DNA from: an uncultured Olsenella sp.
GTDB taxonomy: Bacteria; Actinomycetota; Coriobacteriia; Coriobacteriales; Atopobiaceae
Reading direction: 5' to 3'
DNA: 64,000 nucleotides
Assembly (NCBI GenBank): GCA_900314495.1
Contig: OMVJ01000001.1
Span: 62,001-126,000, forward strand
In this document: one piece after another, positions 55,963-64,000 of the stretch
Layout: every line of letters starts with the position of its first letter
Numbering within the stretch: the first letter of the stretch is position 1
Notes under the pieces: generated by a model
What the model saw: the letters and a program-made list of their open reading frames with translations, nothing else
The model's database searches: none
Told to the model about the DNA's origin: nothing
Program-made: the position numbers and the translations under genes

Positions 55963-55976
55963 AACAACATCACTTC

Positions 55977-56602
55977 GAGACATAATGGCCCTCCAATCCG
56001 CCAGCTCCTGTCTCGAAGTGGTGTTGACACCCGTTCAAGACGGAATCGGGCCACCTAGGTGCCTCGTTGGTCTCGATGTGGTGTTGACGTCGGTTCCAGA
56101 CAACGCCCAGTGCCGCCGCGACACGTCATTTAACCCAAGGTGCGCAGCACCCCGTGCCACATTCCACTCGGCGACGACGCGGCAACGGTTAGCCGCAGGT
56201 CTCAGAGCTCGCCCTCGCTTCTCGTAGACACATAACGCACCCCGAAATCCGTCCCTATAAGTTTGATATGCCACGCAAAAGGCCAGATAAATCTGGCGTA
56301 ATGTCTGACGAAAGTGACTTATAGGGACGGATTTTGGGGTGCCGAAACTGCTTACGGGCGTTTTCGTGACCGATAAACGCGCAGGTAGGGACCCGTGAAT
56401 TTGACCGCCCTCCCCGCCCAGTGGAGAAGAGGCACCATGGCGCCAGGTCGTCTAGCTGGGGTTTTGTGGGTGCTCCTGCTCCACCGTGGAGATACAGCAC
56501 CCTTGCAAAGGAACGCGGCGGCCCTTTTAGCTGGGCAAACGTACCAGAGGCGTTCTAAGCCCCGTAGACACCTCCAATGGACTCTTGGGCTCCATCATCC
56601 GA
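55977..56602. repeat. ~630-bp direct repeat, copy A
   Basis: This gene-free stretch aligns by eye, at roughly 80% identity over its length, with copy B (58790-59422) in the same orientation. Shared landmarks in order are TGTCTCGAAGTGGTGTTGAC, AGTGCCGCCGCG, the 106-bp inverted-end element, ACGGGCGTTTTCGTG, CTCCCCGCCC, TCTAGCTGGGGTTTTG and AGCTGGGCAAACG. No open frame is conserved between the copies, so it is probably non-coding or decayed. The rest of the gene-free gap (55840-57297) holds only scattered degenerate frames. Confidence 0.85.
56237..56342. repeat. 106-bp inverted-end element, orientation 1
   Basis: Inverted ends 56237-56260 and 56319-56342 (24 bp, one mismatch) flank a 58-bp core. 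The core equals the reverse complement of the core in the other copy (59058-59163) at about 52 of 58 positions, while everything outside the ends is collinear. In this copy a promoter-like TTGATA (56263-56268), 17-bp spacer and GATAAA (56286-56291) reads on the plus strand. Confidence 0.85.
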
Positions 56603-56936
56603 CGCGAGTCCGACGTTGCTTACGCGTGTGATCACCCGCCGCACTTCTTGAGCTTCGCGTACGAGCCGGTGACATCCGTCTGCCTCAAGTAAATCCTGAC
56701 CGGCAAGCGCGAAGCCCAGCATGAGCTCTTCCGCAGCATTTCGTACTAGCGCGGCCTCTAGTACGCCAAGAATCGACTCCAATGCAGGAAGCTAGTCTTT
56801 GAATACGAAAACGTAATTGTTGAGCACTAATCACCAGTGCAATGAGAACGGGAAGGAACGTCCTGGCAGCATCAGGGTACAATCCAAAAAGGCAGACATA
56901 CGCACCTGCGTCCCCCTGTCCTCTTTTTGGAGCCCT

Positions 56937-56983
56937 CGGCAGCAATCCCTAGCCTTTCGACGGGGCATGTCGCTGACCGGGGG
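56937..56983. repeat. Short direct repeat, copy 2
   Basis: It repeats 55918-55962 (CGGCAGCAATC... TTTCGACGGGGCATGTCGCTG). It falls in a gene-free stretch about 330 bp after copy A. Confidence 0.65.
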
Positions 56984-57297
56984 CATTCTTGTCTGATGGG
57001 AGTTCCAATAACTCGTACCCCGATTCTGCTTGATGGCCTCCAGAACCTCCGCCCAGACCTCAAGCGACGTTGTGACGACTTCCTCAACAGACTGCTCCAC
57101 TACGCATTCGTGCGCGGTGGTCTCGCGCTTGACCGAGCTACTGGACTACCAGAGGCACGTTGCAGGCGCCAAGAGACAGTCGGGGCGATGAATGGAATGG
57201 TCCTGGCAAACCGCAGGGTCGCTCAACTAACATGGTGGCCAGCAGGCCAAACACGTGCGCCGCGCCATGAAGACCTTCCTCAAGAAAGGGGCCTGCG

Positions 57298-57498
57298 GTG
57301 GTCACACCGGACATGATCTACTGGATGAGGAACAAGAGCTGGTATCGAACAGTAGACAACGCATACGAGTACGAACTCACCGACGCCGCCCCCGATAAGG
57401 CCAGAGAGAGCTACGCCAAGTACAAGGCCGGGGTCGACCAGGCTCTTGCGGAGCTTGACGCGACGCCATACGACGACGTCATGCTTGACCTGCTCTAG
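57298..57498 (+). CDS. Uncharacterised small protein
   Basis: The 66-aa product (VTPDMIYWMRNKSWYRTVDNAYEYELTD...) is not recognised. It is acidic and probably helical at the C-terminus (KARESYAKYKAGVDQALAEL). The GTG at 57298 follows AAAGGGG at good spacing; an ATG at 57313 is an alternative start. It is the first of a run of very short plus-strand genes between the two ~630-bp repeats. A palindrome of the GTCGAACGA family follows 8 bp after the stop. Confidence 0.5.
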   Translation: MVTPDMIYWMRNKSWYRTVDNAYEYELTDAAPDKARESYAKYKAGVDQALAELDATPYDDVMLDLL

Positions 57499-57505
57499 AA
57501 GAAAG

Positions 57506-57542
57506 GTCGAACGATCCTGCCGCGCGGCAAGGTCGCTCGACG
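57506..57542. repeat. GAACGACC/CCTGCC palindrome, divergent copy
   Basis: GTCGAACGATC... GGTCGCTCGAC forms an imperfect hairpin around CCTGCCGCGCGGCA. It resembles the elements at 58221-58253, 58744-58777 and 59469-59496. Confidence 0.55.
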
Positions 57543-57619
57543 ACTACTTCCTATGTAGAATTGCAACATAGGAACAACGGCGGTGCCCATAGATTCCCGG
57601 TACGGAGTAAGGAACAATC

Positions 57620-57829
57620 ATGACCTCACGTGAGATATGGCCATATGTCGGTACGGCCGCAGAGCTGAGGCTGACAGATGGCGCTACCGTTACTGGTTGG
57701 ATTTCGGGCGTTGACAGACCAGCGAATCTGGAGCCTGATGAAGTTCCGTACGTGTACGTAGAAGACGCATCGGGCCGTTCCATTGCCATTGATATCTACG
57801 AAGTGGCGAGGATTGTACCAACACGATAG
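57620..57829 (+). CDS. Uncharacterised small protein, probable SH3-like/Sm-like beta barrel
   Basis: The 69-aa product MTSREIWPYVGTAAELRLTDGATVTGWISGVDRPANLEPDEV... has alternating short beta segments with conserved glycines and ends in VARIVPTR. The pattern (RLTDGATVTGWI, VEDASGRSIAIDIYEVARI) resembles small barrel proteins that carry a strand-turn 'DG' motif, but this is only a guess. AAGGA precedes the ATG at good spacing. It is 9 bp upstream of a 28-codon gene, so these small genes are probably one transcript. Confidence 0.6.
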   Translation: MTSREIWPYVGTAAELRLTDGATVTGWISGVDRPANLEPDEVPYVYVEDASGRSIAIDIYEVARIVPTR

Positions 57830-57838
57830 GAGACTCAA

Positions 57839-57925
57839 ATGAACTTCGCACTGTCAGTACTAGCGGCGGTCATAGGATTCGGAATCGTCGCCATAATCAG
57901 GGCCGCAATCGAAAGGCGGGGGTAG
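57839..57925 (+). CDS. 28-aa single-pass membrane microprotein
   Basis: A very short frame, MNFALSVLAAVIGFGIVA followed by IIRAAIERRG, begins at an ATG preceded by AGGAGA at ideal spacing. Residues 3-21 form one hydrophobic helix and the C-terminus is basic, so an N-out/C-in single-pass peptide is predicted. It lies between two similarly short genes (9 bp and 2 bp gaps), which favours real translation. Size and shape recall type I toxin peptides or small regulatory membrane proteins; no antitoxin RNA was found. Confidence 0.5.
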   Translation: MNFALSVLAAVIGFGIVAIIRAAIERRG

Positions 57926-57927
57926 CC

Positions 57928-58110
57928 ATGCCGCAGACGGACGCGCAGCGCAAGGCGGACCGGAAGTACAAGGCGTCACTGAAGCGCACCCTCGTCACCT
58001 TCTACCCCGCCGAGTCCGACCTGTGGGAGTGGCTCGACTCGCAGCCCAACAAGCAGGGCTACGTGAAGCGCCTGATCCGCCAGGACATGGAGCGCAGCCG
58101 CAACGCCTAG
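57928..58110 (+). CDS. Small basic protein, ribbon-helix-helix-like
   Basis: The 60-aa product starts MPQTDAQRKADRKYKASLKR and continues TLVTFYPAESDLWEWLDSQP then NKQGYVKRLIRQDMERSRNA. A basic N-terminal helix, a single beta strand (TLVTFYP) and two helices fit the ribbon-helix-helix fold of small DNA-binding proteins and antitoxins seen on mobile elements. GCGGGGG lies upstream of the ATG, which is 2 bp after the stop of the 28-aa gene. Function as a regulator or antitoxin is inferred from shape only. Confidence 0.6.
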   Translation: MPQTDAQRKADRKYKASLKRTLVTFYPAESDLWEWLDSQPNKQGYVKRLIRQDMERSRNA

Positions 58111-58220
58111 CGCACCCCGTCCATCAGACACCTGAAATGGGTGTACGGAACTCGCACGCGCCGCGATTCTCAACTGGGCAAACGTGTCAAAGGGGATGAG
58201 TTACGTACACCCAGTTTTGC

Positions 58221-58253
58221 GTTGAACGACCCTGTCAAACGGCAGGCCCTTCC
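58221..58253. repeat. GAACGACC/CCTGCC palindrome
   Basis: GTTGAACGACCCTGTC then AAACGGCAGGCCCTTCC form an imperfect palindrome of the same family as 58744-58777 and 59469-59496. It lies inside the apparent 5' part of a longer frame (58141-58404), arguing that this part is not coding. Confidence 0.6.
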
Positions 58254-58263
58254 AACTGCAGTA

Positions 58264-58404
58264 ATGCATATCCTCAACACCAGCCTCTCGGACGAAGATC
58301 GCAAGCGAGGGGTAGTGAGCAAAGCCGTCGGGGACTACTACTATACTTTCAAGAACCTGGGGTCTAGCTCCTACGAGTTCATGGGTCGGCAGCTCATAGA
58401 CTAA
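58264..58404 (+). CDS. Possible small protein or gene fragment
   Basis: The 46-codon frame MHILNTSLSDEDRKRGVVSK then AVGDYYYTFKNLGSSSYEFM ends GRQLID. The frame is open back to a GTG at 58141, but that part contains a palindromic repeat, so the coding part is probably the last 46 codons. No ribosome-binding site is seen before the ATG at 58264, so it may be the 3' end of a decayed gene. It ends 11 bp before the next small gene. Aromatic residues in DYYYTFKNLG suggest a folded core. Confidence 0.35.
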   Translation: MHILNTSLSDEDRKRGVVSKAVGDYYYTFKNLGSSSYEFMGRQLID

Positions 58405-58415
58405 AGGGGGCTCTA

Positions 58416-58634
58416 ATGCCTCTGGACGGAATCGACGCAGAGCTCGATCGCGCCTTGCGGGCAATCCGCGATGACGACGAGTTCGTTGACGGCACGCTAA
58501 AGCGCGCGAGCAGCCGAGAGAACAAAACGGAAATGCTCCGCTACATCGAGTCGTGCAGGGAAGCGGGAGAACCTGTGACGGACGAGGACATGATATTGAT
58601 GTCGGTACTCCTGAAGCGCAGGTCTCATGATTAG
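58416..58634 (+). CDS. Uncharacterised small acidic protein
   Basis: The 72-aa product (MPLDGIDAELDRALRAIRDDDEFVDGTLKRA...) is acidic and probably all-helical (NKTEMLRYIESCREAGEPVTDEDMILMSVLLKRR). It has AAAGGGGG upstream of the ATG at good spacing. It is the last gene of the small-gene run between the ~630-bp repeats. It is not recognised; size and charge fit an antitoxin or immunity protein, without evidence for either. Confidence 0.55.
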   Translation: MPLDGIDAELDRALRAIRDDDEFVDGTLKRASSRENKTEMLRYIESCREAGEPVTDEDMILMSVLLKRRSHD

Positions 58635-58743
58635 CCAAGGCGACAACACGCATCGGGTAGAGAGCCAATTGAAGAGTGAGCGCGAGAACGGGCCATCCGT
58701 GAGAGTGGCCTGCATCATGCAGAGACAGCAATGATCAGCATCG

Positions 58744-58777
58744 GTTGAACTACCTGCCGAACGGCAGGGCCGTTCAC
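58744..58777. repeat. GAACGACC/CCTGCC palindrome
   Basis: GTTGAACTACCTGCC GAAC GGCAGGGCCGTTCAC: perfect inner arms CCTGCC/GGCAGG with outer GAAC/GTTC. It sits directly before the second ~630-bp repeat. Confidence 0.65.
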
Positions 58778-58789
58778 TTGCACCACACC

Positions 58790-59422
58790 GAGACATAGTG
58801 GGCCTCCATTCGGTCAGGCCCTGTCTCGAAGTGGTGTTGACACCCGTTCAAGACGAAATCGGGCCGGCTGGGGCCTTGTCTGTCTCGATGTGGCGTTAGC
58901 GTTGGTGAGAGACAAGGGGCAGTGCCGCCGCGGCATCACCTTGCCGCTGTTCAGCACAAAGTGCGCGGCACCCCGCGCCTCATTCCCCGCGCCCACGCCA
59001 CGGCAACGCTTGGCCGTTGGCCCCCAGGCTCGCCTTCACTCCCAGTGCACGCACGGCGCACCCCGCAATCCGTCCCTATAAGTCACTTTCGCCAGCCATC
59101 ACGCTAGATTTATCTGGCCTTTTGCGCGGCATATCAAAGTTATAGGGACGGATTTTGGGGTGCCGGAACTGCGTACGGGCGTTTTCGTGCCCGACAAACG
59201 CGCAGGTAGGACCCTATGAATTTCGGCGCCCTCCCCGCCCGGCAGAGAAAAGGCACCACAGGGCCGGGCCGTCTAGCTGGGGTTTTGCGGGTGCCCGCGC
59301 TCCACCGTGGGGATACAGCACCCCTGCGAAGTAACGCGGCAGGCCCTTCTAGCTGGGCAAACGCGCCGGAGGGGTTTTGAGCCCCGCGGACGCCTCCGAT
59401 GGGCTTGGGCGCCATCGCCCCC
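58790..59422. repeat. ~630-bp direct repeat, copy B
   Basis: It aligns collinearly with copy A (55977-56602), except for the 58-bp core of the inner element, which is inverted. It fills the gene-free gap 58635-59522 between the last small gene and the res stop. Short hairpins with TGTCTCG and CGAGACA arms open the repeat. Confidence 0.85.
59058..59163. repeat. 106-bp inverted-end element, orientation 2
   Basis: Inverted ends 59058-59081 and 59140-59163 (24 bp, two mismatches) flank a 58-bp core that is the reverse complement of the core at 56261-56318. The promoter-like pair now reads on the minus strand: TTGATA at 59132-59137 and GATAAA at 59109-59114, 17 bp apart. Confidence 0.85.
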
Positions 59423-59468
59423 CAGATCGGCCGTTTGGCGCCTTCTGGTGAGGTCGACCTTTGCAGAC

Positions 59469-59496
59469 CGTCCCCGCCAAACGGCAGGGTCGTTCA
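59469..59496. repeat. GAACGACC/CCTGCC palindrome
   Basis: CGTCCCCGCC AAACGGCAGG GTCGTTCA is a fourth, degenerate copy, lying between the second ~630-bp repeat and the 3' end of res. Confidence 0.5.
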
Positions 59497-59522
59497 CCGT
59501 GACGCCTAGCGTTGGCTAGACC

Positions 59523-62500
59523 CTACCGCATCACCCGCTGCATCAGCTCGTAGTAGCTGGTCACCACGTCATAGGTCACGTCCGAGGCGCTCATCTCGCG
59601 GAACAGCTCCTTGGTACAGCGAATCTTAGCGTCCTCCACGCCGCGCAGCTGCAGGGAATCCAGCGAGCCCTTGGTCTCGGCCACAAAGAAGACGTGCTTC
59701 ACGCTCCCCTTGCGGAAGGCGATGGCCCAGTCCGGCGCGTAGTTGCCCACCGGCGTGGGAATCTTGAACGCGCGCGGCAGCTTGGCGTACACCACAACCT
59801 CGTCACCCGCGTCGAGTCCTTCTGCAAACGCGCGCTCGCCGGCAGAATCCGGGAACACGTAGTTCTGCACGCCCTTCTTGGAGTCGTACGCACGGCTCGC
59901 ATCCTCCGGCATGTGCTCGGCAAAGATCTCGCTGTCGTAGGTCTCGTCCAGTTGGTGGTAGGTGATATGGTCCACGATCATGGACGCCTTGGCCTCCACT
60001 ATCAGCTGGCTGACCTTGGCAATGAACTCCTCCGGGTTTTGCGCGTACATGGCAAACTTCTGCGGGTGAATGCCCTGCAGAATGGCCGCGGCGCTCCGTC
60101 GGGTAATCGCCGCGCCCTGCGCCACCTCGCCCAGCAGGTCGTACGTCACGCTGGAAGACACACCGACGCCACCCAGCTCCTCCGTGTGGCTGCGGCTCAC
60201 CGCAAACTGGCTGCCTGCCTCCAGCTCCTCGCGCGACGCCTTGGCCTTCTGCCCGCCAACCATCAGCTGGTAGGTCAGCTTGCTCACGCGCAGGTGCTCG
60301 TCAATGTTCTTTATGGCCGCGGCGCGCAGCTCGTTCTCGTCAAAGTCCACCGTATAGGCGTGCTTGTGGTTGATGCGCTGCCACAGGTCCTGGAACTCGC
60401 GCTTCTTGAAGTTGGCGTTGAGCTTGTTCTGCGTGACCTTGGTGCGCAGGCCGTTCTGGAACATGCCGTCCAGCGCGTGCGGGTCGTACACGCTCTTCAC
60501 CAGCGCCTCGATCTGCTTGGTAAAGCCGTCCAGGTGCTCGGACAGGTCCTCGTCCGCAATGCCGGAGAGCCCCTCATCGCGGAACTTCTGCGTGGGCTGG
60601 TGCTTCTTGTCCACCAGGCGGTTGCTGACCAGCGCGTACACAATCTCTTCCGCGTCGGCATCGGTGAGGGTGTACTCCACGCCGGCCTCGTTCCGCAGGG
60701 TGAAGCCCGCAAACAGCTTCTTCGTGACCTCCTTGGGCCGCGCGTGCAGCTCGCTCAGGATGTCGCTCTGCAGGCTCTTGGTGAAGCTGGCGTAGCTTTC
60801 CGACGCGATGACCGTCAGCACGTTGACGGCCTGCACCTCCTGCTCGCCCAGGGTCTGCAGGTCCTGCCGCTCGCCCTCCTGGTTCACGCACAGGCGCAGA
60901 CCGCGCCCAACCTCCTGCCGCTTGCCCGTCTCGGAGTCGGAGTGCTTCAGCGTGCAAATCTGGAAGATGTTGGGGTTGTCCCAGCCCTCGCGCAGTGCGG
61001 AGTGGCTGAAGATGAACCGCGTGGGCTCGGCAAAGGAGAGCAGCCGTTCCTTGTCCTTCAGAATCAGGTCGTAGGCGCTCTCGTCATCGGACTCGTCGCT
61101 GCCACGCTTGACCTTGCTGTCCACGCTGTGGCCCTTCTTGTCTATGGAGAAGTAGCCCTTGTGCGTGTCGTGCACGTCAATGCCGCGCAGGTAGGCGGCG
61201 TATTCCGGGGAGACGATCCGCTCCGCAAGGAAACGCTCCACCTCCGCCGCGTACTCCTCCTCAAAGACCTTGCCGTAGCCAACGGTCAGCTTCTCGCCGT
61301 CGTCGCCGTAGGCGCGGTACTTGGCCACCTCGTCAATGAAGAAGAGCGTCAGACACTTGATGCCGCGCACGAAGAGCGCCTGCTCCTTCTCAAGGTGGCT
61401 GCGAATGGTCTCGCGAATCTGCACGCGGCTCATGTCCTTGCCGGCGGAGTCGCCGTACACCTCGCCCTTGGTCAGCGTCAGGCCGTTGAGGAAGGTGACG
61501 CTTGCGGGCCGGTCGTCCATGTCTGGCACAATGCCGTCGGGCGCGATGGTATAACCACGGTAGGCCTCCAGGCGCGTGTCGCCGGACGCGTCGTAGATGC
61601 TGTCCCCCGTATCGAACCGCCCCACCACGCGCCGCACGCCCGTCGCTCCAATACGGTTGTGCTCAATCACTGCCTGCGGCTCGTGGTTCTTGGTCACCAG
61701 AACGTCCTGCAGGTAGAGGTACTCGTCCGTGCCGCGCTGGCCCTTCAGCTCAAAGCCCTTTACCTCAATGCGCTTGACCAGCCGCTGGTTGTAGGCGTCT
61801 ACCGCGTCCAGCGCATAGACCTCATTGTGGTGCTCCGCGTGCGTGGCGGAGTAGTTGAGGCAGAACAGCGGCTTGAAGCGACCGATGCCGTCCTGCGTGG
61901 CCTTGCCGCCCATCTTCTGAGGTTCGTCCTGGATCACGATGGGATGGTTGGCCGCAATCACGTCTATGGGCCGGCGGCTGCCGAACTCGTCGCGCTCGGA
62001 GTACATGATGCGCGCCTCCTTGGAGCGCCCGCCCTCCTTGAACGACGCGTTGAAGGCCTGCATGTTGATGATCATGACGTTGACGTCAGGGCTCTCAGAG
62101 TAGGCGTCCAACTCACCCAGCCGCTTGCTGTCATAGATGAAGTAGCGCACGGTCTTGCCGTACTGCTCAAAGAAGTGCTGCTCCGTGTTCTTGAGGCTCT
62201 TGTACACCCCCTCGCGGATGGCGATGGACGGCACCACCACAATGAACTTGCTCCAGCCGTACAGGCGGTTCAGCTCCAGCATGGTCTTGGTGTACACGTA
62301 GGTCTTGCCGGTGCCGGTCTCCATCTCCACGTCCAGCTGCACGCGCCCGGTCTTGTGGACAAGCTCGCCAGACTCCGGCAGATGGTTGGCCCGCTGCACC
62401 TTGCGCACGTTCTCCAGCAGTTGCTCGTCGGAGAGAACCACGTCCGCGTTGCCGTAGCCCTCCGTCGCCTGCAGCTGAGAGGCGCCAAAGAGCTGCCCCT

Positions 62501-62624
62501 GCGGCGCCACGCCAACGTCGCGCAGGTAGTACAGGGGGTCGCCGTTGGGCTGCCCCTGGAACACGTCCGTCACGGCCTTTGCGGCGTCGGTCTGGTACTG
62601 CTGGATCTTGAACTTGAACTGCAT
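59523..62624 (-). CDS. res: Type III restriction enzyme, Res subunit
   Basis: ATP-dependent helicase-nuclease that cuts DNA after two inversely oriented recognition sites interact. The 1033-aa product has a superfamily 2 helicase core with Walker A METGTGKT (residues 101-108), motif II DEPQK (IVIQDEPQKMGG), FIFSHSALREGWDNPNIFQI and EVGRGLRLCVNQEGER (motif VI). The C-terminal PD-(D/E)xK nuclease is intact: YAPDWAIAFRKGSVKHVFFVAETKG. A GTG three codons upstream overlaps the mod stop region; the ATG at 62624, with AGGTGG 5 bases ahead, is preferred. It follows mod by 9 bp. No frameshift or repeat tract was seen. Confidence 0.96.
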   Translation of the reverse strand: MQFKFKIQQYQTDAAKAVTDVFQGQPNGDPLYYLRDVGVAPQGQLFGASQLQATEGYGNADVVLSDEQLLENVRKVQRANHLPESGELVHKTGRVQLDVEMETGTGKTYVYTKTMLELNRLYGWSKFIVVVPSIAIREGVYKSLKNTEQHFFEQYGKTVRYFIYDSKRLGELDAYSESPDVNVMIINMQAFNASFKEGGRSKEARIMYSERDEFGSRRPIDVIAANHPIVIQDEPQKMGGKATQDGIGRFKPLFCLNYSATHAEHHNEVYALDAVDAYNQRLVKRIEVKGFELKGQRGTDEYLYLQDVLVTKNHEPQAVIEHNRIGATGVRRVVGRFDTGDSIYDASGDTRLEAYRGYTIAPDGIVPDMDDRPASVTFLNGLTLTKGEVYGDSAGKDMSRVQIRETIRSHLEKEQALFVRGIKCLTLFFIDEVAKYRAYGDDGEKLTVGYGKVFEEEYAAEVERFLAERIVSPEYAAYLRGIDVHDTHKGYFSIDKKGHSVDSKVKRGSDESDDESAYDLILKDKERLLSFAEPTRFIFSHSALREGWDNPNIFQICTLKHSDSETGKRQEVGRGLRLCVNQEGERQDLQTLGEQEVQAVNVLTVIASESYASFTKSLQSDILSELHARPKEVTKKLFAGFTLRNEAGVEYTLTDADAEEIVYALVSNRLVDKKHQPTQKFRDEGLSGIADEDLSEHLDGFTKQIEALVKSVYDPHALDGMFQNGLRTKVTQNKLNANFKKREFQDLWQRINHKHAYTVDFDENELRAAAIKNIDEHLRVSKLTYQLMVGGQKAKASREELEAGSQFAVSRSHTEELGGVGVSSSVTYDLLGEVAQGAAITRRSAAAILQGIHPQKFAMYAQNPEEFIAKVSQLIVEAKASMIVDHITYHQLDETYDSEIFAEHMPEDASRAYDSKKGVQNYVFPDSAGERAFAEGLDAGDEVVVYAKLPRAFKIPTPVGNYAPDWAIAFRKGSVKHVFFVAETKGSLDSLQLRGVEDAKIRCTKELFREMSASDVTYDVVTSYYELMQRVMR

Positions 62625-62633
62625 GGCTGCCAC

Positions 62634-64000
62634 CTAGATGACTCTGCGGATGGTATCTGGGCTGTAGGTCTTGAAGAGCTCCTCGAAGTTGGCCTCCGTC
62701 GCGTCGTTCGCCATGGAGGCGTCGCGGAACACGGCGTAGAGCGGCCGCATCCTCGCGATTGCTTCGATAACGGCATTCCCGACCTCAACGTCAAGACACG
62801 CCATGAGTTGACCGTCGTTGACGTCAAAGACCTTCTTGCCGCAGATGTTCCGCACCTGAGTCTTTGCACTGTACGGGATGCGGAACTTGGGCAGCACCTG
62901 GAAGAGGAGGTCCTCGGCCGTGCGGTCCGGCTTCAGGTTGTCCGTGAAGAGCGAGAGCTGCTGCTGGCCCAGCTGGTCCGGCTGGCGCCGCACGTCCTGG
63001 AAGTTGGACGAGTCCACGCGGAAGACGCGGAAGCCGATGTCCGGCACCTGCTTTGGCTCCTCGCCAATCTTCGCCTGGCGGTTGACTTCCTCCACCTCGC
63101 CCTTAATCTTCTCCCCCGCGCGCCGGATGCGCTCCTCGCCCACTACAGAAAGAACGTGTTCTTCGCCTAACTCGTCGCACAATCCGATTGCGTTTCGTAA
63201 ACGGGCTTTCTTATCATTCGATGCCTTGGACAACTCATCATCTAAGTCATCGGGGTACTGGATGCAAATGAAACTCCTGCTCCCAAAATCACTAGCATTC
63301 CTCCTCATTACCGCTTCTGCAGTTGTTGCAGAACCAGAGAAGAAATCTACGACTATACAATCGGAGCTATTCGGTACCAAGCCTATAATATAATTGATAA
63401 GTTTAACTGGCTTCGTGGTGTCGAACACGTCTTCTGAAATGAGTTCCAGAAGTTCATATTTTGCCTGTCTATTATGTCCTGTTTTCTCCAAATCCGTCCA
63501 AAGTGACGAGGGTGGCAGCCCCTTCATGTCCGCAAGATATGTTCTCCTCTTAATCCCCGTACCATCTTTGTTGAAATAGATCTCACCCGACACCATCTTG
63601 GCCTTAAGAGTTTCCCTCGACCACCGCCATCCATTCTTCGGAGGATGTATCACACCTCCATTCGGCGATGGAATATCAAAACGTAGATTCTCGCGATAGT
63701 TTGGTGAATTCAAAGGATTCCCGTCGAACCAGGGCCCTCTTGGATCCCCATCTGGATTTGCGAAGTGCTTCCGCTTTGCCTCATCTTGTTCAAGCTCTGG
63801 ACGCCAGCCTGGCATCTTAGAATAGATTAATGTATAATTATGATTATTTGAGAACTGTTTAGCGTCATTGTTACTATTATCAGAAGAACGCCAAATTGCG
63901 TTGCACACGAAACATGACGCTCCAAAGATTTCATCGCAAATCTTTGTTACATTTGCCACTTCGTTGTCATCGATACTGATGAAAATTGCCCCATCTTCAG
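62634..64000 (-). CDS. mod: Type III DNA methyltransferase, Mod subunit (partial, N-terminus outside window)
   Basis: Adenine-N6 methyltransferase and recognition subunit of the type III system. The 455 codons in the window run off the right edge in frame (GAIFISIDDNEVANVTKICDEIFG reads through 63959, where a GTG is not the true start). The SAM-binding motif is DCIVVDFFSGSATTAEAVM and TGHNRQAKYELLE is the conserved helix before it; the DPPY catalytic motif should lie just outside. The 3' half (to ~63150) has the GC-rich composition of the neighbours, but bases ~63160-64000 are clearly AT-richer, suggesting exchange of the recognition and catalytic part. Confidence 0.93.
   Translation of the reverse strand, partial: EDGAIFISIDDNEVANVTKICDEIFGASCFVCNAIWRSSDNSNNDAKQFSNNHNYTLIYSKMPGWRPELEQDEAKRKHFANPDGDPRGPWFDGNPLNSPNYRENLRFDIPSPNGGVIHPPKNGWRWSRETLKAKMVSGEIYFNKDGTGIKRRTYLADMKGLPPSSLWTDLEKTGHNRQAKYELLELISEDVFDTTKPVKLINYIIGLVPNSSDCIVVDFFSGSATTAEAVMRRNASDFGSRSFICIQYPDDLDDELSKASNDKKARLRNAIGLCDELGEEHVLSVVGEERIRRAGEKIKGEVEEVNRQAKIGEEPKQVPDIGFRVFRVDSSNFQDVRRQPDQLGQQQLSLFTDNLKPDRTAEDLLFQVLPKFRIPYSAKTQVRNICGKKVFDVNDGQLMACLDVEVGNAVIEAIARMRPLYAVFRDASMANDATEANFEELFKTYSPDTIRRVI

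Follow-up and report, generated by a model that had tools for sequence, protein, structure and literature searches.

A single old inversion of the loop in one copy of a dispersed hairpin repeat of about 400 bp most probably explains two oppositely oriented 106-bp elements in a 64,000-nucleotide stretch of DNA from an uncultured Olsenella sp. (here termed the window), with the inversion having taken place via the hairpin rather than through a switch. The repeat represents an apparently undescribed family of dispersed intergenic hairpins in the Coriobacteriales, with strictly conserved islands and a covarying hairpin that call for explanation. The window thereby offers a clean natural hairpin-loop inversion in a bacterial genome, which can be polarised thanks to the ancestral state preserved in the other copies, and a warning that a reversed core between inverted repeats does not on its own amount to evidence of phase variation.

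Two hairpins within a local duplication

The two elements lie on the forward strand at 56237-56342 (copy A) and 59058-59163 (copy B), where the preliminary description had placed them, each with inverted arms (56237-56260 and 56319-56342 in copy A, 59058-59081 and 59140-59163 in copy B) enclosing a 58-bp core. The arm 15-mer AATCCGTCCCTATAA occurs four times in the window against 0.24 expected. As reverse complements the elements are 92% identical, and the reported reversal of the core was confirmed, with core A (56261-56318, corresponding to the minus strand) identical to the reverse complement of core B (59082-59139, plus strand) at 52 of 58 positions, compared with 29 for the best of 100,000 mononucleotide shuffles. 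In core B there is a conserved CTGGnnTTTTG near the centre, with the left half being variable.

Both elements occupy the same position in two diverged direct repeats of about 630 bp, as had been claimed, with flanks that are collinear upstream (55968-56236 and 58781-59057, plus strand, 78% identity) and downstream (56343-56583 and 59164-59405, 85% identity), a divergence indicating that the duplication is old. Within the repeat, only the roughly 400 bp rightwards from the hairpin form the dispersed unit, while the upstream 280 bp or so lie outside it and are common to the window pair only. The downstream conserved part on the plus strand carries boxes TCTAGCTGGGGTTTTG and TAGCTGGGCAAACG in copy A (56343-56583), in which the right end of the unit is degraded, and in copy B (59164-59450) contains GTCTAGCTGGGGTTTTG (59271-59287) and CTAGCTGGGCAAACG, ending with GCGCCTTCTGGTGAGGTCG. 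The left arms of both copies have the CCCCG variant on the same side and the right arms are identical, showing that the outer arms were not inverted and therefore that the breakpoints lie within the exactly matching inner arms.

With the core of copy A re-inverted in silico, copies A and B are sisters (support 1.000). This relationship, together with the collinear outer arms and flanks, upholds the earlier view that the core was inverted between the arms rather than inserted independently. Two separate insertions of a plain MITE in opposite orientations would agree with the TIR-like ends and the MITE size, but are barely conceivable given that the insertion point and outer arms are common to the pair, that all other hairpins keep the same relation to their downstream flank, and that neither a free hairpin nor a flank-only copy was found in the genome. 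An assembly error flipping the loop, to which a fragmented draft genome and palindromic arms would lend themselves, is very improbable, as the arms of copy A match each other exactly over about 18 bp, the whole element should fit within one ordinary short read and the flipped core has substitutions of its own.

A dispersed repeat family in the Coriobacteriales

The pair first described is real but is not the full complement, the genome from which the window comes (G000; 2.8 Mb, 65 contigs searched) holding 16 copies of the 106-bp element on six contigs. A flank-only search recognised the approximately 290 bp to the right of the hairpin, whole or in part, at 15 of the 16 copies, with just about 70 bp of the right part left at the sixteenth (L013) in a 640-bp search. 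The approximately 280 bp to the left were common to only the two window copies in the own-genome search. Since the right part accompanies the hairpin and the left part does not, the dispersed unit measures about 400 bp, running roughly from CCTCCCAGTACGCGC to GCGCCTTCTGGTGAGG, and consists of a long imperfect hairpin (arms of about 24 bp, loop of 58 bp) followed by about 290 bp with recurring boxes. Wherever checked, Pfam-supported flanking genes lie outside the unit.

Of 140 genomes of the family searched with a profile of the hairpin region, 17 contain relatives, and the same layout is kept in at least three other genera, giving four genera including the window's own when G081 is left out of the count, its copy apparently being the very sequence of the G007 copy. 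Among named genomes the exact arm pattern was found only in RUG13628, a rumen MAG (G007). The family appears to be mostly old with some recent duplication, given that two copies at different places (L003 and L005) are 95% identical and that another pair (L004 and L049) occupies an orthologous site in two genera, where 1.2 kb of downstream sequence is 78% identical and 169 bp of upstream sequence 76%. A phage or virus origin was rejected, the arm pattern having no match in IMG/VR, as was a coding origin, there being no consistently open frame across copies. A known RNA was likewise rejected, with no Rfam match at the gathering threshold and a chance-level microRNA match as the best permissive hit.

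Several variants of the family were observed. At L049, in G007, the segment between two CTAGCTGGG boxes is missing, as if deleted by recombination between the boxes. L052 and L071 lie on contigs of two MAGs placed in different genera, and the sequence around the element appears to be one and the same in both, which points to cross-contamination or recent transfer. In genus g28 there are shorter relatives (L075-L083, L091 and L092), several within 26 kb of one genome, with the box GGCACCCCACAAAGCCGCAGGTAGA enclosed by long inverted arms specific to the subfamily. Within the window a smaller relative lies at 58139-58213, its 16-bp inverted arms TGGGTGTACGGAACTC and GAGTTACGTACACCCA, read by eye and unrelated to AATCCGTCCCTATAA, enclosing the box CTGGGCAAACGTGTCAAAG (58174-58192).

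The copies are multiple, intergenic, non-coding and palindromic, in keeping with the general class of BOX, ERIC and REP repeats, and the closest kind, on the best reading, is that of BOX/ERIC/REPIN/MITE-like dispersed intergenic hairpin repeats. Correia elements and other MITEs measure about 100 bp with inverted ends of about 25 bp, as does the hairpin here. They differ in that the Coriobacteriales hairpin was never found without downstream conserved sequence and that no autonomous partner with the same ends was found, all strong arm matches in the own genome being the 16 copies themselves rather than ends shared with an autonomous transposon. The BOX elements of Streptococcus comprise boxA, boxC and a variable number of tandem boxB modules with a TIR and TSD, and resemble the present repeats in being dispersed, intergenic, modular and non-coding with predicted stem-loops (PMC3049150), but their build is unrelated to the fixed hairpin and recurring boxes in both orientations of the Coriobacteriales unit. 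The CGTC-tagged REPs (Di Nocera 2013, PMC3733652) likewise lack a dedicated transposase and the Coriobacteriales arm contains CGTC, but that arm does not by itself form a short palindrome whose CGTC tag stays unpaired; none of the Coriobacteriales names looked for appears in the main text of that paper. In the literature on Coriobacteria, searches for invertible promoters, MITEs or REPs yielded nothing relevant. The Coriobacteriales are mainly gut bacteria.

REPINs (Bertels and Rainey 2011, PMC3116915) share with the unit conserved inverted ends that form a hairpin with a less conserved, variable spacer, and compensatory changes in the stem. Mobilisation by a RAYT (Y1 transposase) might also be suggested by the Y1_Tnp genes, two of which are present in G000 and others in four of five relatives. 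However, the unit is longer at about 400 bp and has far fewer copies. Furthermore, 13 Y1_Tnp loci from five Coriobacteriales genomes were examined, and at every one the gene has its own, unlike short repeats on both sides, with matches to the present arms or boxes at chance level, such that no cognate RAYT flanked by the same repeat was found, while G161 carries the repeat family without any Y1_Tnp match. RAYT/REPIN membership was therefore rejected, the Y1_Tnp flanks lacking these arms, and such mobilisation is considered unlikely. The repeats at the RAYT-like loci (L103-L115) are mostly palindromic and different at nearly every locus, often with GGGGAC or GGGGGAG.

Polarity of the inversion and the case for a switch

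Scoring with a leave-one-out weight matrix placed 15 of the 16 own copies in the forward orientation (as at 59058, which is ancestral), with only that at 56237 reversed (-5.4 bits forward, 52.5 bits reversed), and all three copies of RUG13628 forward, so that 18 of 19 scored copies share one orientation and one is flipped. Three of these (L016, L051 and L052) had low matrix scores in both directions, L016 being out of register by one base, and agree with the rest by eye and on alignment. A further six copies, from another two genera and oriented by the flank downstream of them, have the same loop polarity on alignment, so that with the three of RUG13628 nine oriented copies from other genera were checked and all are forward. 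Given that copies A and B are sisters and all others are forward, the forward orientation is ancestral, with the flip placed on the 56237 branch, and it came after the local duplication. Divergence is similar in the core (6/58) and the downstream flank (37/240; Fisher p=0.41), and as such the flip is not demonstrably recent.

The preliminary description had taken the pair for a short invertible element with a promoter in its core. A programmed inverton, in which a recombinase would act on the arms and flip a promoter in the core to switch flanking genes, would fit the inverted arms and the reversed core at a fixed site, but the shared orientation of the 15 other own copies, the RUG13628 copies and the six relatives argues against an element that flips as a system. 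One orientation for the other copies, in this genome and in relatives, is largely the outcome that the preliminary description had named as refuting its proposal. From these consensus assemblies we infer that no flipping is ongoing, the data being a 65-contig draft with one consensus per locus, in which a minority orientation would be invisible.

The hexamers TTGATA-17-GATAAA are present in the core as described, but they are not conserved among copies, the -10 being absent in several, and a sigma-70 scan of 56000-59500 gave no promoter-like sites against 1.1 expected, leaving a redirected promoter unsupported and the would-be invertible segment without a conserved outward promoter. The best-conserved motif of the core, CTGGGnTTTTG, lies within the would-be promoter spacer and resembles the box CTAGCTGGGGTTTTG that recurs downstream in the unit; this box, with one mismatch allowed, outnumbers a reversed-pattern control in nearly all of 13 genomes from seven genera.

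A search of the genome for a tyrosine or serine recombinase linked to the same ends had also been proposed. The genome encodes three tyrosine recombinases and no serine recombinase above the cut-off, and none is on any of the six contigs with copies, which argues against a linked invertase but leaves room for a recombinase acting in trans. The Pfam-matched neighbours are ordinary chromosomal genes (urease accessory, transporters, TrkH, PLP enzyme) rather than typical phase-variable loci, and at the four loci with Pfam matches on both sides (L003, L005, L009 and L013) the unit lies between convergent genes, 3′ of both. Taken together an inverton is improbable. Cassette sites of the attC kind, a candidate in view of the clustering of copies in one orientation, look unlikely, there being no integrase on any copy-bearing contig.

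In the favoured account, a local duplication made copies A and B, and the loop of copy A afterwards inverted a single time, between inner arms that match exactly. We infer that the palindrome most likely stood extruded as a hairpin or cruciform at that time, with either intramolecular recombination or replication template switching bringing about the flip. Small inversions mediated by hairpins are documented in chloroplast non-coding DNA, typically 4-50 bp (PMC12371153), and are alike in that a hairpin loop is inverted in non-coding DNA with no programmed switch; the present case differs in concerning a bacterial dispersed repeat and in its 58-bp loop, slightly above that usual range. No described bacterial case of exactly such a hairpin-loop inversion was found in the literature searched.

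Maintenance of the hairpin and conserved islands

In other genera the arms differ in sequence yet remain complementary, as in GTCCCGTTATT/AATAACGGGAC and ATCCCCCTCCCTAT/ATAGGGAGGGGGAT, from which it follows that the hairpin itself is maintained. In a cross-genus alignment 84.7% of arm cells pair, with 40 double-change cells compared with 15.4 in shuffled alignments and 4-13 with the partner slid, and an arm covariation score of 0.283 against 0.113 shuffled, although the relatedness of the sequences inflates these counts. Arm-to-arm templated correction could produce such covariation without selection. As judged from sequence comparison the palindrome appears to be maintained, a claim that stops short of an RNA function.

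Downstream of the hairpin there are islands of near-identity across genera (GTCTAGCTGGG twice, and CAGGTAG) in copies that are otherwise 54-70% identical. These islands, the covariation of the hairpin and the copy that two genera share at orthologous positions (L004/L049) would be consistent with selection acting on a multi-copy element, either a structured RNA or a regulatory element that binds protein, with the hairpin as one of its domains. However, the downstream part folds barely better than shuffles (mean z of -1.3 and -1.4 on the two strands) and the RNAalifold covariation term is near zero, which with the Rfam result makes this reading possible but less favoured. A fuller version, in which a selected functional multi-copy element (RNA or protein-binding DNA) has had its arms replaced wholesale between genera and undergoes recurrent low-rate flipping of the loop that alters the function of a copy, is rather unlikely.

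Other features were noted in the window. Each of the two duplicated repeats has a further hairpin, CATCACTTCGAGACA...TGTCTCGAAGTGGTG, in its upstream part (55968-56037 and 58781-58850). A sequence of about 30 nt around CTGCCNAACGGCAGGG occurs in five copies (57202, 58231, 58753, 59328 and 59473), these possibly being terminators. Beside copy B, at 59523-63959 on the minus strand, lie Type III restriction (1036 aa) and modification genes, the modification ORF (441 aa) matching only the C-terminal two thirds of its family model, with its 5′ part towards the end of the window.
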